From Ceratodon purpureus (Eukaryota > Streptophyta > Bryopsida > Pseudoditrichales > Ditrichaceae): DNA of 64,000 bases. Shown in pieces: positions 16,900 through 47,945 of the stretch. The DNA is taken from positions 15,966,318 to 16,030,317 of the forward strand of contig CM026429.1 of NCBI GenBank assembly GCA_014871385.1, in the 5' to 3' direction. Position numbers and translations under genes: made by a program. Each line of letters opens with the position of its first letter. Positions within the stretch are counted from its first letter, which is position 1. The notes under the pieces were generated by a model. That model was not told the origin of the DNA. It worked only from the letters and a program-made list of their open reading frames with translations, and made no database searches.

Positions 16900-18015
16900 G
16901 AACCTCCGAAGACCGAATAATGCACGAGTCTACAGTAAAATCAACAGACGCGGAACATGAAACCATCGCGAGCCCTCGATCGTCCCGTTGCCAACTGATC
17001 TATCTAAGTTAAGGTCATCGACTGCTGGTCGAGGGATAGCGACGAGGCCCTGTGTCGATGAGCCGGGGATGTCGACGACGGGAACATGATGGTGAGGAGG
17101 CGACGAGGTGTGGAGATGGAGATGGAGACGACGTCGAAGAGGCGACGACGGTGTTGAGGAGGTGACCATGGTGGCGATGTAAGCCGTTACGAACGGTCAC
17201 CGTGTGAGGTCGTTGCGTCCGAGTTTCGAGCCGGCGATCGTCGCAATTTGGACGTATTCGTGGTTCGGCGCGGCTTGGTTTCGGGTGCGTGAGGTCGCCG
17301 GGGCGGCAGGATTCCGCGTCTTGTGGATGTGGTGAGTAATCAGCTGGTGAGGTTTGCGTTGTTCCGTTTTGGTGGAGTCGGGAATTTCTTCGACGGCTCT
17401 GGTTTGAGCTGCCGTGTGGATCTGGATTTTGGATGCCGGTCGTGGATTGTGACGAGGTCGTGGTTTCTTGGTTCAGTTGTTGCGTTCGTCGTCCAGTTTC
17501 TTGAGTTCGAGTGAGTAGCATGAGGTGTAGGAGTTGTAGGTAGGGTGCTTGTGCGGAAGTTGGAACGAGGTTTTGTTATTTGGCCTTTGTTGGCGAATGT
17601 CGATTTCTTGAGGTTTTGAGCTGCCGAGGGGGTTTGCATTGCGGATGCTCGTAGTGGAGTGGTCTTGGATTGTATTGAGGTTTAGTATTCGTGGTTTGTT
17701 TGTGTCGTTTCGTGAGTTCGAGTGAGTGATTGATGGTGTGAATTGCAGGAAGGATTGTTTCTTCGGAGGCTGGAACTGCGTGTTGGACACTTGGCGAGGT
17801 CGAGGTCGATTGGTGAAGGAAGTCGTTGCGGAGGGGGTACAAGTGAGGCTCTTGTTAGGTTATGGAGCCTATGAGATACGGAACGGGGGAATGTTCGTTG
17901 TGGATGTGGAGGTTTCAAGGGGAAGAGCGGCATCGTGATTGAGGTCGTTGTTGGCAACGTTCTTGAATTGAATGTGTAGGGCGCGGCGGAGGTGGTTAGC
18001 GAGGTGAGCGTTGCG
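16900..18015 (+). promoter_or_regulatory. GC-rich promoter/5' leader region of the coiled-coil gene
   Basis: GC rises sharply here relative to the DNA before it, with TC- and G-rich tracts typical of a plant promoter and 5' UTR. Several short open frames on both strands reflect composition and are not called as genes. No TATA box could be fixed with confidence. Confidence 0.4.
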
Positions 18016-20106
18016 ATGGCGCTCAGTGAGGTTCAGCGAGGTCATAGTATTGCGTGGAATTGTCCGGCGTTGGAAGGTGGTAGTCTGCATCATAATGGAT
18101 ACAAGCTGACTGAAGAATTGCGGAGGTCTTCTGAATTGTCTGCAGCCAAGATGCGGAGCTTTGAGAGGGAAGATTACAGTTCCTACGGCTTGGAGAAAGG
18201 AGAGAAGGAGAATCTGGAGATGCGTCTTGCACCTGAAGATCTTGCGGAAGAGAACTATGCCAAAGACGGCACTGGTATGCCGGAGCAATGTAGTGATATG
18301 GAAATCTGGGCGGGTAGAACGAAGCTTGAGGAGCATAGTCTCAGGGGCAGAGTGTGGTCGTTGGAAGAGGAGAACGGTGAACTGCACAAGGACTTAGCCG
18401 CCATGACGTTGAAGGAGACTATTCTAAGAGATAAGGTGAAGGATTTTGAGATGCAAATGGACAGTCACAGGAAGCGAGTGGAGAGAGCGGAGAGGACGAT
18501 TTCAGAGCTACGACAAGCGGTAGCTCATAGTAGCAAACAAGCGCGACAAGCTGACGGGGAGGTTGAGGAGCTTCGTTTGCTTTGCACTCGGAAAGATGGA
18601 GAGAAACAGGATTTGCAAAACAGAGTGGAAAGATTGCAGCAGTTGTGTACAGATCACGAGAAGAGCATCCATGGTCTCAGGCAGGGGCTCAAGAATGGGA
18701 TGGATGGAAATAAGGAAGGAAGGATGAGCAGGTTACAGAAGGAATTGCAGAGGTTGAGTGCTGTTGAGATTACTCTTCGTACCGACCTCGAGGCTTCTCG
18801 AGTTGAAAACGCAAGCTTGCGGCAAGATATCAATTCCCTGCTAGAGAGGTCTGCGAACCAGCAGAGAGAGAGTTCAATGCACATGAAGAGACTAGAGCAG
18901 GCGTTACGGTCAGAGATTGATCGTGGACAGTCTAAAGTTGCTGAGCTCCAGGATGAAAATAGTCTCCTGTTTGCGAAATTGAGGCTGCTGACGAGAGAGC
19001 GGCAGGACACCAGAGAGGCCCTCAAAACTTGTAATGACAGAGTATCCGATTTGGAAGAGGAGAATCAATGTCTACAAGAAGAGATTGCTTCGGCAGAGAA
19101 GGCTTTGGAAGTCAAGCAGGAGGCAATCCAAAGCTTAGAGCGTCAGCTCGAACGCCCCACTCAGAATAATGAGGTGGCTCAGACAGCTTTAACGCTACAA
19201 GAGAAGACTTCTCCAAATAGTATCATCGCGATAAAGATGAAGGATAAAGAGCCTCAGAATGCTCCTCACTTGGGAACCGAGCTGCGCCAGAGTCTACAGG
19301 CCGCAGCGCAGCATCTGCATAGCATGAATGAACGGCTGGAGGCGTTGATGGACAAACTTTCCGAGCGCGATCGCCAGCTGCAAGAAGCTAGGTCGGACAT
19401 TGCCCGAAAGGACGAGGTTATTACTGACCTCGAGGCCACTGTGAGCAATTTAGCGAAGACAGTGGATTCCCAAAGTTCGCGCATAATGCGCCTCTCTAAG
19501 CGGAACGAGGATCTCACAAAGGTATCGCAGTCTCAAGCAAGACAGATAGAGGAGTTCCAGACTCGGATTGCTACTGCTTTGGATTCCAAGAATAAGGCAG
19601 AGCAGGAACTGAATGTATCAAGAAAGCGCCTGGAGGATTATGATAAGCACTACGAATCACAGGATTTGACATGCCAGCTGCTACAGGAGAGACTGGAAGC
19701 TTTTGAGGCAGAGCTGCAGCGTTGTCAGCCACAAATTTCCTCGCTTCTGCAACAGAGGGACGACCTAGCGTTGGAGAGGAAAAATCTACATCATTCGCTT
19801 TCCGATGTGACTCTCAGGGTCAACGAGCTTGAGCATCGGTTGGCAGACAAAGAAGAGGCCGTGAAGGTGCAGGAGGTAACTCTGGAGGAACTAAGGAAAG
19901 AGGTGGATGTCGGACGAAAAGAGTTGATTCTTGCCAAACAAGAGAGAGATGAGATGCAAAAAGAAGCAGAGTCAATGAGCAGAGAAGCGTTACGAACAAG
20001 TATGGAGGTTGAAGTTTTACGAAGAAGAGTCCACCAGCTTGATGAAGATTTACTGCTTCGAGATGGTCAGATTTGCATACTTCGTGGCGGTCTTGAAGAT
20101 TCATAG
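18016..20106 (+). CDS. Long coiled-coil protein, DUF7653-like (plant-specific)
   Basis: An intronless ORF of 696 aa. The start is the ATG at 18016 (MALSEVQRG); an upstream extension to 17992 would need GTG. After a non-coiled N-terminus of about 100 residues, nearly all the rest is heptad-rich, charged coiled coil (E, K, R, Q, L; no transmembrane segment). The segment LCTDHEKSIHGLRQGL, followed by LQKELQRLSAVEITLR and SLRQDINSLLERS, resembles the conserved core of plant DUF7653/myosin-heavy-chain-like proteins (LQMLCTDQEKTI.GLR...LTGVE.SLR). The C-terminus (LDEDLLLRDGQICILRGGLED) also fits that family from memory. The role is unknown; scaffold or cytoskeletal function is only an inference. 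A long GC-rich leader precedes it, and the next gene (21846-23011) is convergent. Confidence 0.85.
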   Translation: MALSEVQRGHSIAWNCPALEGGSLHHNGYKLTEELRRSSELSAAKMRSFEREDYSSYGLEKGEKENLEMRLAPEDLAEENYAKDGTGMPEQCSDMEIWAGRTKLEEHSLRGRVWSLEEENGELHKDLAAMTLKETILRDKVKDFEMQMDSHRKRVERAERTISELRQAVAHSSKQARQADGEVEELRLLCTRKDGEKQDLQNRVERLQQLCTDHEKSIHGLRQGLKNGMDGNKEGRMSRLQKELQRLSAVEITLRTDLEASRVENASLRQDINSLLERSANQQRESSMHMKRLEQALRSEIDRGQSKVAELQDENSLLFAKLRLLTRERQDTREALKTCNDRVSDLEEENQCLQEEIASAEKALEVKQEAIQSLERQLERPTQNNEVAQTALTLQEKTSPNSIIAIKMKDKEPQNAPHLGTELRQSLQAAAQHLHSMNERLEALMDKLSERDRQLQEARSDIARKDEVITDLEATVSNLAKTVDSQSSRIMRLSKRNEDLTKVSQSQARQIEEFQTRIATALDSKNKAEQELNVSRKRLEDYDKHYESQDLTCQLLQERLEAFEAELQRCQPQISSLLQQRDDLALERKNLHHSLSDVTLRVNELEHRLADKEEAVKVQEVTLEELRKEVDVGRKELILAKQERDEMQKEAESMSREALRTSMEVEVLRRRVHQLDEDLLLRDGQICILRGGLEDS

Positions 20107-21845: not shown

Positions 21846-23011
21846 TCATGGTGGTGCCGGTGCTACTGCGTCGGAAGGATTAATGGGGGCCAGTCCACGA
21901 TTACACAAAATCAAAAAATATGAAGCTATAAAAATTCCTGTGAACACAGACAAAGTGAGCACTAGAACTCCAAATCTAAAAATCCAGAAATGGCTGCTAT
22001 ATCCGAGATATAGCTTGGGAGCTTCATCCTTGTCCTTCTCCTTAAAATCTTTGAATTTGAAGCGCCTCCCCTTATTTCGAAGAACATTTGTTCTTGCAAC
22101 CGCCTCCTGAAAATCATACCACCAGGTCATCGCATGTCAAAATACGATAAATTCAATAAACAGCCACAGCTGTGCTGATCAGTACAATATTTTGATCACC
22201 GCAAGAATGTGGCACAGAAGGTGGTGAACAAAAGAATAAGGATTCACCATACACACCGTTGCATGCTCAAAAACTAACTGATCTGTTCTGTACTATTCCT
22301 TGATAGGGTGAGCAATTCAAGATGAAATAAACGAAATCTGAAAATGGGTGCAACGAGTGAATCCATTTCTGAAAAAGAGGGACAGGAGAAGTTGAAAGAA
22401 GCATTAGACAGTGAGAGGTTGTGAGATTGTACCCTTCGAGCTAGGTCTTCGTCGTTGCGCAGGTCGTCGATCACTTGGATGCGGCTCAGTTTCATAAACA
22501 CGCCAACGAGGGCGACCGCCCACGCAAGTGCCGTGAGAATGACCGGACTCCACACTTTTTTGCAGTTGTGGTACTCGTTGCCGGATTGCGTGAGCTGCGT
22601 CACGGCCGTCAAAACCACTCCTTGGAACACTGAGAAAAACCCGACTAGCTGATAGATTTCGTTCTTCAGGTCACCACTACGCTTCTCCTTCTTATCCACC
22701 CGGTCGGACAGCAGCTTCACCTTGCGATCCCACTCTTCCAGCGCTACGCTATACACCGTGTTCCGCTTGATCCACAGCAAGCTCTTCACCTCGTAGTAGG
22801 GCTGCAGTGCGTCGTCCTCGTCGTCAATGTTTATGTTCTCATTCATCTCAATGTCTTCCTCTGTCAATCCTAAGTGTATGCCAGCAAGCTCCGGGTGGTG
22901 TGAGGGTTGGGGTTCGGGAGGAATAACATTGTTAGGCTGAACAAGAGGCTGAAGTTCTTGATCACCTTCGATGCTCGAGGTCGAACTTTGCCCCTTACTA
23001 CTACTCATCAT
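21846..23011 (-). CDS. Three-TM membrane protein of unknown family, paralogue A
   Basis: Two exons on the minus strand: 23011-22433 and 22106-21846, joined by GT-AG (GG|GTACAA ... TTTTCAG|GAGGCG) in phase 0, giving 279 aa. The start is ATG-ATG at 23011; an upstream extension to 23038 would need TTG. The N-terminal ~80 residues are hydrophilic and acidic. Then comes a block shared with paralogue B at 26.5-27.5 kb: WIKRN.VYS.ALEEWDRK, RVDKKEKRSG and NEIYQLVGFFSVFQGVV, the last starting TM1. TM2 is around WSPVILTALAWAVALVGVF and TM3 is in exon 2 (VFTGIFIASYFLILCNRG). Exon 1 ends DEDLARR exactly where B ends DEDQARR. I do not recognise the family. It lies head-to-head with the small gene at 24793. 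Predicted integral membrane protein; the compartment is unknown. Confidence 0.85.
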
Positions 23012-23039
23012 CGTGCCGCCTGTGAACTTCACTGTCAAT

Positions 23040-24790
23040 ATTCAACGCAAAGCCCCCCGGCATGAAAACCAAATTCCTTTTGTCAGCTAGCTACTTTTCT
23101 TCATCTCCTTCACCGTCACGGATCTACTCGCCTCTGCAAGAGCTCCCCTTCAAATCAAAACAAGCAACCACGAGTTTCTTGCTTCAAGCCTACAAACCCA
23201 AAAGACCACTGAACTCACGAGATGAAACTAGCAGAGAGGATTGGCGCTTGAAATGGGATGTACCTGCATAACCGATTCAATCGCCGAAGCAGGTGGCACA
23301 ATTAACCGCGTTCACATCCCGCGTACACACGCACATTCTTTGTCGCAACCTGAGCTTCGCAAAGAGAAAGTAAGGTCTAGCCATCAAGACTTCGAATCTC
23401 CTTATCCCAATGGCGCGGCCTCGGCTCCAACCTCGATTGCTCCCACATGGAGCCCGCGTGCCCGCGGCGAACCAATTACAAGCATAACTTAGGAAACCCA
23501 ATCGTCGCACATGCACAAGTGGAGTATCATCACACGGTATATCAAATCCTCAGAGAGCATCCACTGTTCATTGCGAGGAACCCGCGGCCGATGCGCTCGT
23601 AGAAGTCGCAGCATCGATGAGTTATCGATTCAGTCCATGTACGGGAATGGCTAATACGAGACACCACAGCTTCAACCTTGCTGTCACTGTCCTGGAAACC
23701 TGCCACTTGCGAGATTCCCTGAATTTCATACTCTTTGAAGCTTGAGACCTTGAGGCAGGCTTGACTGTCGAAGTGGTTCTGGACCTATGCGGGAATCTTC
23801 CTGTGCCACTTGCGGGCTATCATGAGCACTCTTGAGACTTGTACATCTGCAGACAGAAAGCTTTCGTAGCTACTTTTTTTACAGACAAGCTGCACATATG
23901 ATATTTTATATTTACCGACTGCTAATAGCTTTCAGCAGACTTCTCTGACGCGCTTTACCGACTGTGATTAGAATACTATAAGTTAGCTACTGTGCGCCAG
24001 CCTCGAGAGTTCATTTTCCTTTGCCGAGACAAACGTTGGGTGTAGGAGGGAGAAGCGTGTTCGAGGGAGGTTGAGACTGTGTGACTGTGCGAGGAAGTAG
24101 GGTTTTGCTGTGGCTTGAAGCCCTGAACAGACGATGCGATCAGACGAAGTTGGTGTAGCGAAACCTGGGCAAAGCAGAGCGTAAGGAGAAGGTGTAAAGA
24201 AGATCGAAGGCAAGTACTTATTTAAGGTTTGTTTCAACTCCTGGGTGTCGTTTCGATCGCTCTTGAATAAGCATTTGAATTTCGACATACAAGTAGAAGT
24301 GAATCAGAGTCTGGCTATGGCCGCAGCTTTTGTCGATGACCATCAACACTGTATCCATTGACGAAAGTGGGTTCGCAAGCTAACTTGTCACTAAGATTCT
24401 TTCATAGTGACGTTGATTCAATCCTTGAACCGCATTGCAATGTTGATGCAAATTGCTTACAAGCCCTAGTGCAGAAATTTGAAGCTTTAGTGAGCAGTGC
24501 ACAGGCCTCAAGAGATTACGTCGCAGAGTGTGGTTTCTCATCAAGTGCTGCCAGGCTTGCCGACAAAGATTCCTAAGTATTGTCGGCAGAGTTTTGTTTC
24601 GAGAGGATAGGAGCTCTTGTAAATCAGTTCCCTTCCACCTTCAATCTGGACACTCTTCTAACTCTGATTTAAAGAGGGTTCTGCGATTTTTAGTCACTTA
24701 CATCTCTCAGTTAAACCATATCTATTGTTGAACTCGGTGCAGGACTATTCACACTTCTCTAGGAGGGGAACCGAACCCAATCATCAGGCA
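23040..24790. promoter_or_regulatory. Bidirectional intergenic region, module copy 1
   Basis: Separates the divergent starts at 23011 (minus) and 24793 (plus). A TATA-like ACTATAAGT near 23973-23981 could serve the plus gene. AAAGCTTTCGTAGCTA and TATGATATTTTATATTTACCGA (23860-23925) recur in related form upstream of the second small gene (about 33358-33465). An AG-ended pyrimidine stretch near 24744 may be the acceptor of a 5' UTR intron. Confidence 0.45.
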
Positions 24791-24792
24791 GA

Positions 24793-25233
24793 ATGACTAC
24801 GATCACAGTTTTGCGCAATGCTACAAAGGGCACAGTCGTCTTGAGAGAAGGACAAGTCGGGGTTCTCCGAAGAGTATGTGAAATTCCAGCCGGCGAAACT
24901 CACAAAGTGCGCTCCAACTTGACTGCAACGTACAAAGAGTACTGGTGTGCACTGCAACCCAGTAGCAATGATGACAAGTTCATCCTCACCTCGGACGACT
25001 GCATCGACTGGAGGGAAATAGAGATCATCACCACTGATGATACTGTTGGGAAGAAGTTTTTATGGAAGGGAGTCGTTCCAGCGAAGGGCACCTCCAAATC
25101 TGATAATACTGGCACACAATCAGATTCCGGTTCTCCATCATCTCAATCAGCTGGAGCTTCCACATTTCTTTCGAGACTGCGCTCCTCCAGGCTATTTGGA
25201 TGGGTTTTCAAACATAAGCCACTCGGTAATTGA
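24793..25233 (+). CDS. Small protein of unknown family, paralogue 1 (TYKEY domain)
   Basis: A single-exon ORF of 146 aa from ATG at 24793. The N-terminal ~95 residues form a compact domain shared with the protein at 34166-34585: VLRxxQVGVLRRVCE, a TYKEYWCAL motif near residue 47, LTSDDCIDWREI near residue 70, and LWKG near residue 95. A low-complexity S/T/G/Q linker follows, then a basic, hydrophobic tail (FLSRLRSSRLFGWVFKH). There is no signal peptide or TM segment, so cytosolic or peripheral membrane location is inferred. The domain looks like a small beta-rich fold, but I cannot name it. It is transcribed away from the three-TM gene A. Its 3' flank GGATGTTGCAAGAA recurs after the paralogue, confirming segmental duplication. 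Confidence 0.85.
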   Translation: MTTITVLRNATKGTVVLREGQVGVLRRVCEIPAGETHKVRSNLTATYKEYWCALQPSSNDDKFILTSDDCIDWREIEIITTDDTVGKKFLWKGVVPAKGTSKSDNTGTQSDSGSPSSQSAGASTFLSRLRSSRLFGWVFKHKPLGN

Positions 25234-25239
25234 AATCAA

Positions 25240-26470
25240 CTTTCAGTTTATTGTGGATGTTGCAAGAATTAGTTGAACTCATGCTTCTATGTTCATTTGT
25301 CATGATTCAGCACTTGTAGCACTCTTCAGTGTTTGTCTTCACATTCTGGAAGGACCAATGTAGAGGCAAGTCGCACATAGCATGGCCGCAGTTTTGATTC
25401 AGATAATTTCTTATGACTGTTTTATCATGATAAGAATTTAATCCAATGTTGATCTGTCAATGTAGGTACTGCTCCTGCCACATCATCAACGTCTCATGCC
25501 GATACGGCACTATGATGCCAATAGGGAGTGGGGGCTGGTGGTGAATAATCGTGAAACATTACATAGCCTTTTTTTGTAGATAATATTGCATGTCCAAGAC
25601 GATTATATCATGGCAGATGGATGTTAGATTATGTAAATACAGTAGTACTTCGACATGGAAATAGCATCCAGGAGGAAGGCCTTACCACCGGGTCAGCGAA
25701 CTGTCGGAGGTTCTTGAATTGCATAAGGCGTTACCAATGGCAGATGGCACCAAACTTGTTATTTTATTGTAAATTATAATTTGCTTTCACCTGTTCGTGA
25801 GAATGCGAAATAGGTCCAGAAGTATAGACTTGCAAACTTAGACCGACTTTTTAACATCTTCACAAGTTCCATAGAAGTTTAACATCTTGACAAGTTCCAT
25901 AGTAGATCGAAGGACAGATTCAACTGTATGATTCTTTCAATAAATGTGTTAAAAATTTATGTGTTAATTTGAATGTTTATAGATTAGATCTCAATTCTTC
26001 ATGTCTCTTGATCAATTTTCTTCAGCAAAGCGAGTTTCTCATCTCTTATCATTATTGTTGGTTTTCAAGAATCTTCATATCATGTTTATATGATCCAACT
26101 TTTTGATCCACTATGATTCTCACTTCAGCGTGATCCAGTTACGCCATTGTTCACATTCCCCTACGATTGCACTATGGTTCTGTCTGCATGTTTAATTCCA
26201 TATTCCATGTGTCAATGAGAGCAGTGATACTGTTGCACCACACCCCTGGACATGTATTTAACATCCTTGAACTTTGGTACTGGTAACATACTGAACACAG
26301 GATGAACACAAATAAAAACAATTCATCATTCTAAATGGACCTCACGACCAAGTATCAGACATGTTGAAGAATCAAAGACTTTGTATTCAAAATTACTCGA
26401 CAATAATCCTCAAGGATTGTACACTTCTGTGGACAACACCAGAACTTGACACCTAGTATCTAACAGGTAT
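25240..26470. other. Intergenic, no gene
   Basis: Contains a short direct duplication at about 25852-25905 (AACATCTT.ACAAGTTCCATAG twice) and otherwise nothing recognised. It probably includes the 3' UTRs of the converging genes on either side. Confidence 0.55.
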
Positions 26471-26475
26471 AGGAT

Positions 26476-27478
26476 TTAGGGTTTTATGGGGGCCATTCCA
26501 CGATTGCACAAAATTAAAAAATATGAAGCTATGAAGATTCCTGTGAACACAGACATAGAGGCAAAAACTGCGCCAAATCTGTTGATCCAGAAATGCCATA
26601 TTCCATATTCAAGAAATGCTTTTGGAGCAACTCTCTTCCCAAGTACCTTAAATTCGATGAATTTGAATTGCTCTCCTTCTCTTCGAAGTGCATTTGCTCT
26701 TCGAACGACTTCCTGGAAATACCAAAAGGTTATTGATTAGAACTCATACAGGTGAGAAAACGGTAGCAGCTTCTGAGCCTCAACATATCTCTATGGTCTC
26801 TCTCTAAATATTCATTTGTGCATCATACAGGATATCATTTTCGTTCAAATGCGGGACAAGACTCTATATTAGTCTACTGATGTCTTGTATTTATGTCGAA
26901 AGGAGAATCTGCCATCAAAATCCAAGACCAGTACTCTGGAAAGATATTAGAACAATATTCAGAACCAGAAACAAACAGTGGGTGGAACAGATTACCCTTC
27001 GAGCTTGGTCTTCGTCCGCACGATCGCGCTCTAATGTGTCAATGCGGCTCAGTTTCTGCCAGACTCCAACAGTGGCAACGACCCACGCCAGCGCTGTGAG
27101 AATGACTGGGCTCCAGACCTTCTTGCATGTGTGGTACCCGTCTTGCGACTGCGCGAGCTGCGACACAGCAGTCAACACCACTCCTTGGAACACCGAGAAA
27201 AACCCCACTAGCTGATAGATTTCGTTCTTCAGGTTACCACTACGCTTCTCCTTCTTATCCACCCTGCTGGACAAGAGCTTCTCCTTGCGATCCCACTCTT
27301 CCAGGGCTGCGCTGTACACCGAGTTCCGCTTGATCCAAATCAGGTTCTGCACCTCACGAAATGGTGCCAACAATTCGTTCTCGATTTCATTCAACTGCAA
27401 AGTCGGATTATCTCGTTTCACCCTCAAGTACTCCACAATCCCTTGCTCGATCTCTGCCTCTGTCTTACCAAAATCCAT
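26476..27478 (-). CDS. Three-TM membrane protein of unknown family, paralogue B
   Basis: Two minus-strand exons, 27478-26996 and 26712-26476, joined at GG|GTAATC ... TTTCCAG|GAAGTC in phase 0, giving 239 aa. The start ATG (MDFGKTEAE) is at 27478; a longer frame to 27508 would need GTG, and a TTTCAG just upstream may be a 5' UTR acceptor. It shares the WIKRN...ALEEWDRK, RVDKKEKRSG and QLVGFFSVFQGVVLTAV blocks and the same intron position with paralogue A. It has a shorter, different N-terminus and ends IKP, lacking A's DAVAPAPP tail. Three TM segments lie at roughly residues 85-107, 122-140 and 200-225. It forms the left half of the second divergent module. The function is unknown. Confidence 0.85.
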
Positions 27479-27959
27479 CTTGCAGTAACAGTCACCTGAA
27501 ACCACCACATTTAAATGTTAAGAACAAGTCTGAACTCCAATACATCGAGAATCTTATTTACAACTCCGTTCCAACATAGTCAAGAACCACTTAAGGATCT
27601 CAGGCGCATTAACGAGCCTATGCTTGCTCCACATCTCTGGTCCTACACAGGTGATGTGGGGCGAACTGGTGCCAAAGAAAAGCATCCAAAAGAGATAACC
27701 CACAATGTGAAAAAACACCACTTTTTGATGTTCATCCAGAAGTGAAATCACCAAACACGATATTTCCAGAGCAACTGTGCAGTCACCTCTAAAGGACACC
27801 GGGGATCACCCACTCACTGTCCGTCGCAGACTTGAAGAGAACATCAGGAACTCTGCCACATGTATAAATTCATATTAGGTGACCCCAAACCGCATCAGAG
27901 ACATATCAGGTGCTTTTGGGGTAGCGAATCTGTTCCCTAACCGAACTGCGTAACACAGG

Positions 27960-28110
27960 TCTGATTTCTCCTGTGGTTCGCCCCCGGAAGTGAGCAGTGT
28001 CACGGGCTGGGAGAAGAGCAACTCTCTTGCGGCTCGGCTCCCCTAGCAAGTCGAATACCTTACCACTAACGCGCTGTACCAATGCACAAGCGCGCCCAGT
28101 AAGTTACTAC
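27960..28110 (-). repeat. Possible tRNA-derived SINE fragment
   Basis: On the minus strand, CGCGTTAGTGGTAAGG resembles a tRNA D arm/A box, followed by GACTTGCTAGG (anticodon-like) and GGAGCCGAGCC in the place of a B box. It does not fold as a complete tRNA gene. The B-box match is poor, so this is tentative. Confidence 0.3.
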
Positions 28111-28348
28111 TGGGGGAACTTGATGCTAGATGAGGCTGCTTTCGATGTCAGAATACGTGAGTACCGCGTCTCTAGAGTCCAGAGAGCGCGTCGAGGGGAA
28201 GTGCTCGATCGGTGGCATTGATACTCTTGCCGTGCATGATTCCAGGGTCGGTGACTCGGTTGCCAAGTGCGAAGTGAGGTAGAAGAGGTACAGTAAGTTA
28301 TGTGTAGTGCACAGTATCAGCTACAGACATGACAGCTAATTCATTGGA

Positions 28349-28712
28349 GGTAGAGAGGGGTATTTTCGGGAGTTTAAGCATCTGGGCATGTTTTCCAAGG
28401 TAGAAAAAAAAATGTTGCTTTGAAATTTGGGTCCTCTTCTAAAATGTTTTTTTCAAATATTTTTTTGAGAAAAAACTGAATTTTTAAGGTAATTTTGAAA
28501 GGAGAACTTGTAGACCACTGTAACAATGAGTAGAGTATTTCTATTCCGCCATTAGAAGTCAAAACTTAATGATGGAATTTCTAGCGCGAGATTCTCCTGG
28601 GAAAAACCAAAAAGTCAAAACTTAATGATGGAATTTGGGTGACGGTACGTTGTTTTCTAGAATAATCATAGGGCAGGGATATTGATTCCTCAGGGAAACA
28701 CCCCTCTCTACC
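28349..28712. mobile_element. Small TIR element M2
   Basis: The left end GGTAGAGAGGGGTATTT and the right end AAACACCCCTCTCTACC are inverted repeats with one mismatch, 364 bp apart. The interior holds a 24-bp direct repeat built around CAAAACTTAATGATGG (28556 and 28613). No ORF. It abuts element M3 base to base. Confidence 0.65.
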
Positions 28713-29527
28713 TTTACCCTTTAGTGCCCAGGTGGTTATTGAGAAATCACTGTTTTTGGTTGATGTGTCTTTAAAACTCTATTTGATGAAATTAGTGATA
28801 CTATTAAAAGTATCCAACCGTATAAATGTAAGTATAGATTAATGACACAAGTGTCGTTTAAATCTTGGTAAGATCGGACTATTGAATTGGGAGATTATAA
28901 CACGTCTTTGATTTGTGTAATGTACACTTAAAATTGGGATTTTTGGGGGTGTGTGACTTCAAGGTTAAATAGAATTTGGGTTAAATTTTCAAAATTAAAA
29001 GTGAAGATGTTTAGCAATAATGGCTTGTGTCAACACCTTTTCATTGCAATCTTTCATGTCAAGAACACACTTATACATAATTATTGTAGATTTGATAAGT
29101 GAAGGTGACTTATCTATGTACGGTTTAGTACAAAATTTATACGTAAAATAAGAAAATAGATGGTACATTAATCAAGGTCAGAATATATACACTACTAGAA
29201 CATGAACAAGAGAACACAATAAAAAGAAACTATAGAAGATAACAAACTTGCAAATATAAGAAATACCACATAGTACGTGTGTTGTATTTGTAAGTATTTG
29301 CTATATTTTGAGGTATTTGTAGTGTTTTGGTAATTTGTACATAGATATTTGAATAGCTAAGAAAGTCAGATTTCAATTTTTTATTTATTTTTGCGTTATC
29401 TACCTAATCAAAAATTGCACATCTGAACTTTACAAATTGAATTGAGATGGTTCACAGATTTTCCAGCATTTCATTTTCTACTGATCCGGTGATCACTTAG
29501 TGGTCATGTAGGCACTAAAGGGGTAAA
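28713..29527. mobile_element. Non-autonomous TIR element M3
   Basis: The left end TTTACCCTTTAGTGCC and right end GGCACTAAAGGGGTAAA are inverted repeats. The termini resemble those of M1 and M4 (CCCxTxAGTGCC core). Internal TATCCAACCGT and GATTATAAC motifs also occur in M1 and M4 in similar form. It has no coding capacity. Confidence 0.6.
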
Positions 29528-29529
29528 AG

Positions 29530-30130
29530 CTTCTACACCGGTGGTGGGTGTTTTAACGTGCCAAGAGCATCTACTTGATGTCATTTTTAGCACCATGATC
29601 ACTCACTCACACAAAAGTAGGCGCCAAGAGCTTGCCCTTTCATTGCAAGATGGAGTTGGAAATATAAAATTTAGCACAGTCACCCAAGATGCTTGACGTT
29701 GGTGCGTTGATGGTGGGAAGCCAAATACCGTTGGCGCAATTCACATTGCCATAATTGCCGTTGGCAAGTTGAAATGGCCTCCCCGTAGAGAAGCTTTAAC
29801 TTCAATCTTATTGGCGACAATGCACGGGGAGAACCGGCAGCTAGTTACAAATCAGCCAACTGAAATTGATCTTTAGCTAGTAGAACTTAAATGTCTTAGG
29901 ATATTTTTTGGTTGATAAATCTAAAATTCATCCATGTATCACAAGAATATCACATAGACATCACCTAAATATTATTAGATTATTATCCAAGTATCATCTA
30001 CCTTTACCGAATGAGTTCAGAGAAAAGAGGATATCAGGTGGGTTGAGTCTAAAATCTCCGAGATAGGTGATTGGCAAACTTCAACATGCAGAGTTTTTGG
30101 TTGACCATTGCAATGCGCTCTCGAGATTCA
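29530..30130. other. Spacer between TIR elements
   Basis: Unidentified sequence between M3 and M4, moderately GC-rich around 29560-29860. It has no open frame with a recognisable product. It may be old host DNA of the divergent module or another decayed element. Confidence 0.4.
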
Positions 30131-31326
30131 TTAAACCCCTAAAGGCCCTTGGTGTTTTTGGAGGCAAAACTGCAAAAACATACCTCTACTGATAAAAGCC
30201 TACTCTTTTCTAAATTCATAGTTAATATTGAATATTAAGCCGTAGGATCTTATACCTACCTTATCCAAAAACATGTAGACCAATTTTGAGGACAATCCAC
30301 CGTACAGATTGCAAGATTATAACGTTAGATTGCAAGATTATTACGTTTGAAGTCACTCTAAAAGTTTTTTTTGATACGGCCCCGTGAATATACCAAAGAT
30401 TTGATGTCCAAAAACTATACTTTGCAAACACATTTGATTTATAGAAGATCATCAAATCCTTTAGGTATGTAAGCTAGGTATAAGTTCACAAAGTTTGAAC
30501 CACATACGGGCTTAAAAAGGCGAAAAAATCCTTGATTTTCTGGAAGGAGGTGTACTGAAATTGCCTTACATTCTCTAAAATTTAAATCACTTAAACGGTA
30601 GTCTAAAAATGTTGAACTAATAATCCGAATGGTAGATATGTTGAATTCAATGAAGAAAAGAACCACAAAAAATTTCAATGCAATCCAAGTAGATCCCAAA
30701 TTTCTAGAATTTTTTGAAGTGTAAATTGTATATTTCCATTTTATTTCAAAGGGCAATTTTGGTAAGAGGGGTCTTGTAGATGGACCCCTGCCAAGTCATA
30801 GATACTGGATGAATTTTATTAAGTTTGGATGACAAATGAAGATAGGATGAAATATTTAATATGGATGAAAATTAGCTTTTGGATGAAAACTAAGCTATGT
30901 CAATTGGATGAAAAAACTCGTCAACCTCTTTAGATGGAAATGAATATTTAGAAGAAGATTTTCTATTGGATGAAAACCGTCATAAATGTATATGGATGAA
31001 AAAATATTGGGCCCCTTATTTTGCAAGTGCCCACCCTTTGAAAATTTGTCTTGTCACTTTTTGCCCTATTGAATGACGAGCAACTTGGGCAGAAAATAGG
31101 AGATTTTCATTGGTAATTGGCTGCTCGGATTTAGAGCAAATTCTTCTAAAATTTATAACTTTTGCATCGTAACTTTGAATGCTTTGAAATTTACGTTATT
31201 GGAAAGCTATTGTTGAGAGCTACATGGAGTAAAAATTTCAAAAAATAATAAAATTTTGGAACCTTAGTATAGCCTGCCTAGAAGTGCTTCGACCCTAATC
31301 AGGTCTCAAGGGCCTTTAGAGGTTAA
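30131..31326. mobile_element. Non-autonomous TIR element M4
   Basis: The left end TTAAACCCCTAAAGGCCCTT and the right end AAGGGCCTTTAGAGGTTAA are inverted repeats with few mismatches, about 1.2 kb apart. Inside are a duplicated AGATTGCAAGATTAT motif (30313-30350) and an array of TGGATGAAAA-like motifs (30803-31005). No transposase is encoded. Confidence 0.65.
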
Positions 31327-31373
31327 AGTTGATAAACACCCACGAGCGTATACAAGTATAACGACTCATGAGG

Positions 31374-32360
31374 ATTTAACCTCTAAACAAAAATTGTCCT
31401 AGAATGGGCTTTTTTAAAATTTGGGCGGGTTATTAGAATTCCAATTTAATTCATAAATCTTTGAAAAAAATTACGTAGGTAGGCATTTTGAAGAGGCTTG
31501 TGTAGGATTTTTTTATTTTTTTGGAACATACTAAAAAAAGTTACGGGGTTTTGAGTGTCAAAGGCTGCATTCAGCAAAACTTCGAGCAAGTTCAGAGCCA
31601 CTATGAATGCAGCAAATTCTGCCCAAAACTGCCCAAAACTGCCCAAAGTCAAAACTTTGAAATTCCACCAAAAATTGAGATTTTGATATTTTTCAAAAAT
31701 ACAAATTTCTATGTATAGAGAAGGCAGTAGAGCATGTTCCTACTCTTCGGATTTTTGATCCAAGAATTTTCATATGCTACTTTTATTGTCAAAAGACGGC
31801 CTTTGTTTGTGAATTTCAGCATACCCGCTAGCGGAATATGATTTTTTTGGGAACCTTCCACAACGTTTTTGAATATGATATTTTTTGGACATGTACCTAA
31901 CTCACTTAGGAACAAGAATATGGAGAGACTCATCCCATATCTACTTTAAAAAATGGGTTTTTGGGCCTTCAAAACTCTGCTGTCCCCTTTTTTAGCATGG
32001 AAAAAAAATCATGTTTTTCAACTTTGAATGTTACGATCTTGCAATTGGTGAGGAATGAGTGCGTGAGATTTTGTGGAAGCGTAGACATACAAGTTAGCTA
32101 CAAGATCTTACGGTTAGATGTACTTGAAAAGACCCCGAGTTTGCAGAATCCACATTGCTTTGAAGTGGGGCTGTTTTGAGGCGGTTTTGATGAAAAATAC
32201 CCTCAGAATTGTAGGGGTTCAAATCTATGAATACAAACATAGTCCTGACTGAGGGCCAATTCAGACTATGGCGAAACTTTGAGAGGAGAAGCGTCCCAAC
32301 CAATGAAATTATAGAAATGCACAAAGTTCCTCATTTTGCCCTGCACGCTAAAGGTCGAAG
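31374..32360. mobile_element. Probable TIR element M5, ends poorly defined
   Basis: Contains ACAAGATCTTACGGTTAGAT near 32099-32119, the inverted counterpart of the CCGTAAGATCTTGTAG motif in M1. The left boundary TTTAACCTCTAAAC resembles the M4 end. The right boundary (near CTAAAGGTCGAAG) is only a weak complement. A CTGCCCAAAA triplet repeat lies at 31619-31648. Confidence 0.35.
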
Positions 32361-32427
32361 TCCAAAGGATGTTGCCTCCTAAAGACCCTAAGTGGCAGCA
32401 CTTTTAAGAAATTATGGCGCCAAGAGT

Positions 32428-32492
32428 TTGGCCTCTCAAGCAAAGTTTGGATCGAGCAAAATGCTCGACCCAAACTTCCTTCGAGAGGCCAA
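32428..32492. repeat. Short inverted repeat able to form a ~31-bp stem hairpin
   Basis: Arms 32428-32458 and 32462-32492 are complementary at about 26 of 31 positions with a 3-base loop. Outer arm TTGGCCTCTC pairs with GAGAGGCCAA, and inner TCGAGCA with TGCTCGA. The mismatches sit in the middle. It could be a small-RNA precursor-like hairpin or a tiny palindromic mobile relic. Confidence 0.7.
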
Positions 32493-32589
32493 AATTTTTT
32501 TCATTAAAATATGCACAAGAAGTTAAGGCTCTTGGGCTATTAAGAGCTAGTCATGCTTCACAAGCCATGTCATGCTTCAATAATGAACC

Positions 32590-33215
32590 TTTCGACAACC
32601 ATTGGCATTACACCAATGTTGGTACAAAACTTCAATCAGTCATAACATTGATATAACAATGAATATTTTGGTCAAATTTTTTCCACACATTCTTCATTAG
32701 TTTGTACACCTACCCTATTTTTTTTAAGATTTAAAAATTAAAAAAAAAATATATATAAATGTTTATATATTTTGATCATATGTCTAGACCTTTGGACTTC
32801 TCCTTTGGGCCTTCACACTATGACCGGCCAAAGGCTTCAACCTGTAGATGTCCCGAGAACTGCATTTTGGCTGCCACCTCGTTGACTAGCATTGTCAGAC
32901 CACTGACCAATCAAAAAGTTCAAAAACAGTCAAAAAGCTGGTGGTTTTGGGTACACTCATGAGTGGAAATTAGTACCAACTAGGTATGACAATGGAAATA
33001 GTCTACATATCAGTTTTGGGTCACGAAGTACTTTTGTGTTTAAAAATTTGTATCTATTTCAATATTGGGAAGAAAATTTTGAAAAAAATTGCATTATATG
33101 AGAAACCTATTTTTCTACACGTGAAAATTACACCCCAAAAATAACCCCACAAAAAAAGGCTCAAAATCCTTAAGTTGTTGGTTTTAGGTGCTTCTACCTT
33201 ATCAGCCCAAAGACT
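32590..33215 (+). repeat. Dispersed repeat R, copy 2
   Basis: From about 32838 to 33205 this is strongly similar to 47555-47945 in the same orientation, sharing ATGAGTGGAAATTAGTACCA, TATTTCAATATTGGGAAG, AATTACACCCCAAAAATAA and GGCTCAAAATCCTTAA. The earlier part matches 15275-15560 more weakly. There are no terminal repeats or ORF, so the class is unknown. Confidence 0.8.
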
Positions 33216-33219
33216 TCTC

Positions 33220-34165
33220 CTCTCATCATAATTTGGGCCAGGAAAGGGATGCTTCTCCTCTCCACTCAGGACCGGCCCTGAGTGCCTGTAGGTCACAACA
33301 GCACTTTCTTTTAATGATCATGTGCGACTACAGTACTCTGAGATATATTTTTGCACACTGCTTTCGAGCTACAGTAATTCGATCAGTTTCCAGGAAAGTT
33401 AAAACTCGATTCATTTGCAGACATTTGCAGACAAAGAAAACTTATGATATTTTATTTTACCGACATTTGTACAGTAGTCTTGGTTCTCGGTGCTGAACGT
33501 TGCTGACTTCGAACGGTTATATATTGCGAGCCGTAAGCCTCGAAATCATTCTGCTTCTCATCAACAACTGTCGATTTACGAGGGAGAAATGCGGAGGGAG
33601 ATCAACGTCTGCGCAGCTGCAAGGCGAAGTTCAAATTGATGGTGAGACTGCTGAATCCCTTGACAGACACCGTTATGTATGTGTAGTGGTACTTACGATT
33701 TCCCAATCCAAGTATAGCGATCAGAGTTTTCAGGGATTGCTTACGAATGTCACGAGGTTGGTTTGCTGGGTTCGTTTTCTCACAAAGTTCTAGTTGCTGC
33801 ACATATCTTGCCCATAGAGAGTTGAGAATCAAAATCGTTGTCAGTAGAGATCTGTTTCGAGAGCTTTAGGGCTCATGCCCTGTCCGTCTAGGATTTCGCA
33901 GATGTGGGTGGGATATTTACTCTTCCACCTCGAAAGTAAAAATTATCCTCTCAATTTGTCATGTTGGATGCTGCTCAGGAAAAAGCTTGAAGGGGAGAAC
34001 TGAGGCTTGAGGCTTGAGTGCGAGGTTATAAGTTGTAGAGGAACAAGCTTTCTATTGAAATCACAACTAGAAAGACCTATCAACAACATTCAGTTTGACG
34101 AGATTTCTGGACGCAGCTTACTGCACGCGTCATTCGATTGTGGACGAGGAGTCCGTTAAGCTAGG
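33220..34165 (+). promoter_or_regulatory. Upstream region of small gene 2, module copy 2
   Basis: It retains blocks similar to the upstream region of the first small gene (TTTCGAGCTACAG near 33360; TATGATATTTTATTTTACCGA near 33443). A TATA-like GGTTATATATTG lies near 33511-33522, giving a leader of roughly 600 bp, comparable with the long leader in copy 1. Homology stops at about 33.25 kb, where repeat DNA begins. Confidence 0.45.
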
Positions 34166-34585
34166 ATGGCAAAAACGACGGTGAAGAACACTACCAAAAG
34201 CGTCGTTGTTCTGAATGAATCACAAGCTGGGATACTTCGGAAATTATGTGATTTGCAGCCTAACGGTTCTTACGTAGTGAGTTCTCAGTTGAATCAAACA
34301 TATAAAGAGTACCTATGTGTTAGTAACAACTGTAACCAGTTTACTCTTTCCTCAGACGACCTTTGTGAGTGGAAGGAAATAGTGATCGAGCAAACTCAGG
34401 GCGACCCGGGAAAATTGGCTTGGAAGGGAACACAGTCGAGGACGACGACTTCCAAAGCGAAAGGTCCTAACCCAGCAGCAGCTTCTGGCACACAACCTAC
34501 TCAACAACCTACACAGCCCTCCAGCTCACTTCTGTCAAAACTGAGCAACAGGGTGGCCGGTTGGTTTCATGAAACCAGCAGGTAA
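34166..34585 (+). CDS. Small protein of unknown family, paralogue 2 (TYKEY domain)
   Basis: A single-exon ORF of 139 aa from ATG at 34166 (MAKTTVKNTTKSVVVLNESQ). It aligns with the 24793-25233 product throughout the N-terminal domain: AGILRKLCD, TYKEYLC near residue 47, LSSDDLCEWKEI near residue 66, and LAWKG near residue 87. The alignment continues, after a P/T/Q/S linker, in the short tail SSLLSKLSNRVAGWFHE. The linker differs in sequence and composition, so selection appears to act on the domain and tail. No signal peptide or TM segment. In the original arrangement it faced three-TM gene B, from which it is now separated by about 6.7 kb including the 28.3-33.2 kb repeat block. The function is unknown. 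Confidence 0.85.
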   Translation: MAKTTVKNTTKSVVVLNESQAGILRKLCDLQPNGSYVVSSQLNQTYKEYLCVSNNCNQFTLSSDDLCEWKEIVIEQTQGDPGKLAWKGTQSRTTTSKAKGPNPAAASGTQPTQQPTQPSSSLLSKLSNRVAGWFHETSR

Positions 34586-47554: not shown

Positions 47555-47945
47555 AGAACCAACTTGTAGATCCCCCCAGAACTGCACTTTGGCTGAACTA
47601 ACTTTGGCTGAACTAGCATTGTCAGACCATTCAATTCAAACTGACCATTCAATTCAATCAAAATACTCAAAAAGTTGGTGGTTTTGGGTCGGATCATGAG
47701 TGGAAATTAGTACCAACTAGGTGTGACAATGGAAAACTCTACAGATCAGTTTTGGGTCATGAAGTATTTTTGTGTTTACAAAATTTGTATCTATTTCAAT
47801 ATTGGGAAGAAAATTTTGAAAAAATTTGTATTCTATGAAAAACCTATTTTTCGACACGTTAAAATTACACCCCAAAAATAATCTAAAAAAAAAAGGCTCA
47901 AAATCCTTAAATTGGTGGATTTAGGTGTCTCTACCTTACCTAAAG
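47555..47945 (+). repeat. Dispersed repeat R, copy 3
   Basis: Strongly similar to 32838-33205 in the same orientation. It contains a small tandem duplication absent there (CTTTGGCTGAACTA repeated near 47585-47615, and GACCATTCAATTCAA twice near 47625-47657). Confidence 0.85.

Follow-up and report, generated by a model that had tools for sequence, protein, structure and literature searches.

Paired three-transmembrane and DUF7748 genes of the moss Ceratodon purpureus as a probable family of dicistronic nuclear genes

In this article, I discuss a family of paired genes in the moss Ceratodon purpureus whose ancestral unit was probably a dicistronic nuclear gene, with two long open reading frames (ORFs) on one messenger RNA (mRNA), an arrangement that is rare in plant nuclei. 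The pair came to attention in a stretch of 64,000 nucleotides (nt; hereafter the window), positions 15,966,318 to 16,030,317 of contig CM026429.1 in GenBank assembly GCA_014871385.1 (362 Mb in 151 contigs, this one being 17.6 Mb long), where a sequence-only reading had noticed a gene for a three-transmembrane (TM) protein on the minus strand facing a small gene on the plus strand, the same divergent pair occurring twice. Exon models, hidden Markov model (HMM) matches and matches to the Pfam family DUF7748 (PF24928) bear this layout out. Across the genome, however, the TM gene usually lies directly ahead of the DUF7748 gene on the same strand, and the explanation that I find likely, taken as a whole, is that this collinear unit is dicistronic, that its second ORF is reached by scanning, and that the window pairs were uncoupled from such a unit and then duplicated.

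Searching the genome with the TM protein gave at least 64 matches and searching with PF24928 at least 83 (86 candidates scored in each case, both counts being lower bounds), which merge into 56 TM and 82 DUF7748 clusters. In 34 of the 56 TM clusters a same-strand DUF7748 gene follows downstream at a distance of up to 5 kb, and in 33 of these it lies within 1.4 kb, against a chance expectation of 0.01 TM clusters with a DUF7748 match within 1.5 kb downstream. Three TM clusters are divergent, plus window copy 2, whose nearest DUF7748 gene is that of copy 1, the divergent pairs being both window copies, C9:9.07 Mb and C11:1.61 Mb; 18 TM clusters have no DUF7748 within 10 kb, and 45 DUF7748 clusters, the second one of the window included, are not nearest to any TM cluster. 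The earlier proposal of a link between the two families, copied as one unit, gains from 33 further loci elsewhere in this genome at which they are this closely adjacent; a divergent order with a shared bidirectional control region as the meaningful layout, an option raised in the same reading, is not borne out, given the collinear majority and the repeats that lie between the copy 2 genes.

All 33 tight loci have TM exon 1 and a DUF7748 match, and TM exon 2 is found at 32 (one weak, at E 0.23); 32 of the 33 have two ORFs on one strand, each with its own start and stop, separated by a short gap; the DUF7748 gene has an ATG of its own in all 33, and the TM ORF stops ahead of it in 32 of 32. The gap from TM stop to DUF7748 ATG runs from 11 to 561 nt with a median of 86 (32 loci), 19 gaps being no longer than 101 nt (11, 27, 33, 42, 44, 46, 47, 50, 50, 50, 52, 58, 58, 74, 74, 77, 95, 101 and 101) and the remaining 13 spanning 165-561 nt. 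Two of the 32 loci duplicate two others exactly and were removed; for the remaining 30, gene models and introns are predictions and the TM start is taken as the first in-frame ATG, in places possibly wrongly. ORF1 encodes the three-TM protein in two exons (199-433 amino acids (aa) in 27 models) and ORF2 the DUF7748 protein (96-323 aa in 30). A plausible GT-AG intron can be placed in all 13 long spacers, which makes 13 of 30 loci with a likely inter-ORF intron, and after intron removal the 30 spacers total 2317 nt with 8 ATGs against 41.5 expected by base composition, the removed introns carrying 61 ATGs in 2336 nt; 22 of the 30 spliced spacers have a stop in the DUF7748 frame. The 323-aa ORF2, at locus L074 (C13:10669100-10671500), has two DUF7748 matches in one frame and is read here as an internal domain duplication.

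The scarcity of ATGs reaches far upstream of ORF2, tracking the exons and sparing the introns, as scanning to ORF2 on a spliced two-ORF mRNA predicts. For the 27 of 30 coupled loci that have a TM start, there are 18.7 and 16.5 ATG/kb upstream of the TM gene and 17.4, 10.9 and 7.0 in the successive thirds of its N-terminal region, followed by a low zone through the exon 1 domain (3.6), exon 2 (3.3) and the spliced spacer (3.8); values are high in the TM intron (20.9), the spacer intron (26.9, 11 loci), the first 250 nt of the DUF7748 coding sequence (19.3) and past the DUF7748 stop (21.3). In spliced sequence this ATG desert extends about 600 nt ahead of the 30 coupled DUF7748 starts and only about 200 nt ahead of 28 solo DUF7748 starts with no upstream TM gene, the latter being an ordinary 5' leader; eight of these 28 have an open frame of at least 89 codons ending no more than 400 nt away, none of them recognisable by eye as another upstream partner. 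ATG stands at 0.42 of first-order expectation in ORF1 and 0.93 in ORF2, and CTG (1.0), GTG (1.21) and TTG (1.15) are not depleted in ORF1. With the protein kept and the codon usage of ORF2 applied, the 30 TM domains hold 34 out-of-frame ATGs where 92.6 are expected (z -8.1), compared with 1.28 of expectation under this type of null in ORF2, and a milder null of within-gene synonymous shuffling over the whole of ORF1 gives 105 against 131.5 (z -3.35), ORF2 exceeding its own shuffles (186 versus 149.6). Start contexts differ as well: a purine at -3 is found at 29 of 30 coupled and 27 of 28 solo DUF7748 starts and at 16 of 27 TM starts (P=0.0007 and P=0.0009 for the TM deficit against coupled and solo starts, respectively), only six of the 27 TM contexts, at predicted starts, being weak at both positions; strong-context out-of-frame ATGs are rarer ahead of ORF2 (5/110) than inside it (38/232; P=0.0015).

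Twenty-two TM clusters lack a collinear DUF7748, and nine of the 11 that were examined make up an uncoupled set (the window's two, C10_15240k, C10_15385k, C9_16387k, C9_9072k, C11_1611k, C12_6021k and C3_7253k), which is small and whose rows are not independent. The TM domains of these nine hold 8.4 ATG/kb against 3.4 in the 30 coupled genes (Mann-Whitney P=0.0025), or 7.2 (P=0.007) without the pseudogene-like C9_16387k, and the window pair stands at 7.1; out-of-frame ATGs reach 0.75 of expectation in the uncoupled genes other than C9_16387k (eight genes) and 0.37 in the coupled ones. Between tree neighbours, uncoupled C9_9072k has four ATGs and coupled C10_16694k none, uncoupled C12_6021k four and coupled C9_7082k two, and uncoupled C10_15240k and C10_15385k two and four, respectively, to none in coupled C10_15397k. 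Excluded from the set were L020 (C2:6233389-6233562), a short piece with 86% identity to TM copy 1 of the window, and L089 (C9:15601013-15601342), a TM-like copy broken across two frames, both of which look like dispersed fragments or pseudogenes.

Substitution patterns point to purifying selection on both ORFs as proteins: the ratio of nonsynonymous to synonymous substitution rates (dN/dS) is below 1 in every value obtained from 12 chosen pairs (TM 0.15-0.35, 11 values; DUF7748 0.20-0.57, 10 values), these being rough, with dS above 1 in several. The gene trees of the two families have several groups in common, namely C2_9262k/9379k/9382k with C8_6758k, C11_1051k with C8_12557k, C13_2232k with C3_12368k (TM support weak), C12_9595k/9604k with C13_11603k, and the window copies. 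The window copies nest in a 13-row TM-tree group (94/86) of mostly coupled genes, the corresponding DUF7748-tree group being weak (92/48); the DUF7748 tree is built on few columns, with many of its forks weak, and includes nine solo DUF7748 genes but not the DUF7748 of C11_1611k. Both trees are midpoint-rooted, for drawing only, and the direction from coupled to uncoupled is therefore one that I infer.

The model that I favour would have the TM and DUF7748 genes of the collinear loci co-transcribed, with one promoter and one poly(A) site serving both ORFs, and ribosomes scanning a spliced leader, cleared of ATGs by selection, to reach ORF2. This would be leaky scanning, in which ribosomes pass over an ORF1 start in a poor position, as proposed for the bicistrons of chlorophytes (PMC11892635). 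With ATGs undepleted in the first third of the N-terminal region, reinitiation downstream of short ORFs early in the message, or an internal start site, may play a part as well. An internal ribosome entry site is not favoured, because the spacers, the shortest being 11 nt, vary in both sequence and length. From one mRNA both proteins would be produced jointly at a fixed ratio, and they may act at one membrane as a complex, as is suggested by a TM partner combined with basic-aromatic DUF7748 C-termini (at least three aromatic and at least three basic among the last 20 residues in 14 of 30 coupled and 18 of 28 solo proteins; a cysteine at -4 occurs in three coupled proteins, as CTIL, CTIS and CIFQ, and in no solo one). 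The simplest reading makes the window pairs uncoupled derivatives: in their lineage the pair would have turned divergent, become separately promoted and then been duplicated; uncoupling probably came before duplication, since an upstream block common to both window DUF7748 genes suggests that the separate promoter was gained by then, and the window TM copies would have begun to regain ATGs. To the more specific claim, that there are at least 32 protein-protein dicistrons in which transparency to scanning purged ORF1 of methionine and of out-of-frame ATGs, and that escaped copies regain them, I lean with some reserve.

Several observations pull the other way. The first third of the N-terminal region is undepleted, which leaky scanning from the TM start as assumed here does not fully explain; transcription from an internal start or reinitiation after short ORFs would have to be added, or else the TM start was chosen wrongly. 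Even in uncoupled TM domains ATGs remain scarce, at 0.55 of expectation, and composition or history may account for part of the depletion; in-frame methionine taken alone (0.33% versus 0.71%, P=0.07) is suggestive only and was set aside as insufficient proof of relaxation. At three of 30 loci no in-frame ATG for ORF1 was found in the exon-1 frame used, and seven of the eight ATGs left in the spliced spacers sit in two loci whose predicted intron may have been called wrongly. The unspliced DUF7748 frame relative to TM is uneven (0 in 6, 1 in 6 and 2 in 20 of 32 loci, paralogues not being independent), and the trees conflict over C4_19607k and C4_19623k and over C9_5133k and C3_2702k, each couple being sisters in the TM tree and apart in the DUF7748 tree.

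One could instead suppose that DUF7748 has its own mRNA, started from a promoter nested in TM exon 1, with what remains of exon 1, together with exon 2 and the spacer, forming a spliced 5' leader, so that the two genes overlap and produce separate mRNAs. The desert does begin within the N-terminal region and not at the assumed TM start, as such a promoter would have it, but the proposal demands that an internal promoter be conserved within a coding exon at about 30 diverged loci and does not by itself account for the weaker TM start contexts, and I regard it as unlikely while still worth keeping in mind. A fused protein, produced by splicing from inside TM exon 2 into the spacer so as to join the TM and DUF7748 frames, could draw on usable AG acceptors in some spacers, such as that of C1_956k, and on the one frame offset that prevails at 20 of 32 loci; yet every locus keeps a DUF7748 ATG, nearly always with its purine at -3, most spliced spacers have a stop in the DUF7748 frame, and fusion, which I consider very improbable, offers no reason for the desert.

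The desert might also be nothing but a compositional habit of the TM domain, the tight collinear pairs being mere neighbours with separate mRNAs, and the ATG-poor uncoupled relatives would suit this; but the non-coding spliced spacer is equally poor and the introns are normal, the out-of-frame ATGs fall far under the protein-preserving null, and 13 of 32 spacers, at 11-58 nt, leave no space for a promoter between the ORFs, and I give the idea hardly any credence. As for the divergent pair as a functional unit with a shared bidirectional control region, the four divergent cases listed above are on its side, and against it stand 34 collinear pairs to 4 divergent ones, the repeats separating the copy 2 genes and a common block of just 42 nt on the DUF7748 side, which leaves that model scarcely tenable.

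With few exceptions, the nuclear genes of plants are regarded as monocistronic (PMC8166872). Chlorophyte nuclear bicistrons have inter-ORF medians of 183 and 40 nt, a lowered number of AUGs before ORF2, initiation in weak Kozak-like contexts and ORFs that are often in different frames, with 36 high-confidence loci in C. reinhardtii, many encoding functionally unrelated proteins, and a short ORF1 (median 291 nt) in A. protothecoides (PMC11892635). The moss loci resemble them in having a start and stop for each ORF, a short median gap, AUG depletion ahead of ORF2 and ORFs that often differ in frame, and differ in that ORF1 is as a rule longer than ORF2 and not shorter, that a single family accounts for at least 32 collinear loci with the same two proteins, and that some loci have a likely intercistronic intron. 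CDC26-TTM3, conserved in land plants and green algae (Lorenzo-Orts 2019, cited in PMC11892635), is likewise a protein-protein bicistron of plant nuclei, but, as far as that citation goes, a single conserved locus with a short first ORF and unrelated proteins. No moss nuclear protein dicistron was found among the listed titles and beginnings of abstracts on poly-, di- or bicistronic plant or moss genes, a scope with most subscription literature outside it. If the favoured model is true, a family of about 30 dicistrons whose broken copies serve as internal controls would allow the translation of a second long ORF in land plants to be tested, along with whether fixed-ratio output is selected and how far mRNA architecture dictates protein composition. 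It would amount to a natural experiment on translation shaping proteins and would tie two uncharacterised families together by a strong functional link.

Returning to the window (Table 1), the paralogy between copies that had been claimed for both genes holds, with 67% aa identity and a dN/dS of 0.35 for the TM copies and 39% and 0.50 for the DUF7748 copies. The latter are sisters in their tree (99/97); the TM copies form a three-row set (99/95) with C9_16387k, a long branch 0.4 Mb from the window that groups with TM copy 1 at 97/73. Shared blocks had been claimed on both flanks of the small gene, and that upstream stands whereas the 3' flank falls short of E 0.01 in blastn; non-coding homology on self-comparison is modest, blastn between the copies (the reversed-sequence control giving no matches) finding TM exon 1 (82%), exon 2 (74%) and otherwise a single block of 42 nt ahead of the DUF7748 genes, possibly part of the DUF7748 gene's own promoter. 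The start codons of TM copy 2 and DUF7748 copy 2 are 6.7 kb apart, of which about 2.6 kb is three high-copy repeats. Both genes were copied, but no intact control region is common to the copies. An HMM scan of the window for traces of a former collinear partner gave nothing better than E 0.05, and between 20.5 and 36.5 kb there is, besides the two divergent pairs, no further TM or DUF7748 match better than that value.

Table 1. Positions in the window of the paired genes and of the blocks and repeats around them
Feature	Positions	Strand	Evidence
TM gene copy 1, exon 1 (N-terminal region, TM1-TM2)	22433-23011	-	exon-1 HMM E 1e-39; donor AGG|GTACAA
TM gene copy 1, exon 2 (TM3, stop)	21846-22106	-	exon-2 HMM E 2.6e-19; acceptor TTTTCAG
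DUF7748 gene copy 1 (146 aa)	24793-25233	+	PF24928 E 1.4e-23, 83.2 bits (cut-off 25)
TM gene copy 2, exon 1	26996-27478	-	HMM E 6e-42; donor AGG|GTAATC
TM gene copy 2, exon 2	26476-26712	-	HMM E 2.8e-18; acceptor TTTCCAG
DUF7748 gene copy 2 (139 aa)	34166-34585	+	PF24928 E 9.6e-23, 80.6 bits (cut-off 25)
42-nt block upstream of DUF7748 copy 1, matched at copy 2	23878-23919		blastn 81%, E 3e-4
Counterpart block upstream of DUF7748 copy 2	33424-33464		blastn, pairs with 23878-23919
High-copy repeat between TM copy 2 and DUF7748 copy 2	28713-29527		best 40 of 476 first-look candidate places scored, most 80-86%
High-copy repeat between TM copy 2 and DUF7748 copy 2	30134-31327		best 40 of 2314 first-look candidate places scored, 79-85% (window itself excepted)
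High-copy repeat between TM copy 2 and DUF7748 copy 2	31600-32219		best 40 of 3630 first-look candidate places scored, most 88-92%

Neither family had seemed nameable from the letters alone, which remains so for the TM protein and not for the small one. Both small window proteins belong to DUF7748, with whole-protein scores far above the curated cut-off (Table 1), Pfam giving no function for the family and no papers being found under DUF7748 or PF24928. For the TM protein, whose three TM segments were read from the sequence without a prediction program, no Pfam model rose above its cut-off, and eight TM proteins gave only scattered single-member matches. Profile searches of PDB returned nothing significant (best E 0.34 with a 13-row DUF7748 alignment and 0.92 with an 8-row TM alignment), AlphaFold on the two window DUF7748 sequences reached a mean predicted local distance difference test (pLDDT) score of 41, and IMG/VR gave 31 pattern matches and no relatives.

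A few further observations concern the distribution of these genes. Two adjoining collinear pairs on C4 (19606386-19607954 and 19622085-19623458) are repeated about 47.45 kb away (19653836-19655404 and 19669539-19670912) with the same match coordinates and spacers, which points either to segmental duplication in the recent past or to duplication in the assembly. On C3 a DUF7748 gene of the paired type (L060, C3:7266699) and a divergent TM gene (L087, C3:7253004) lie 13 kb apart and are possibly another uncoupled pair. Contig C6, which extends past 86 Mb and may be a sex chromosome, has none of the listed 64 TM and 83 DUF7748 matches (86 candidates scored each). Elsewhere in the window, a long open frame at 17980-20106 encodes a coiled-coil-like protein, which served as a control for methionine and ATG content, and the segments 32838-33201 and 47560-47938 form a repeat pair that is 84% identical.

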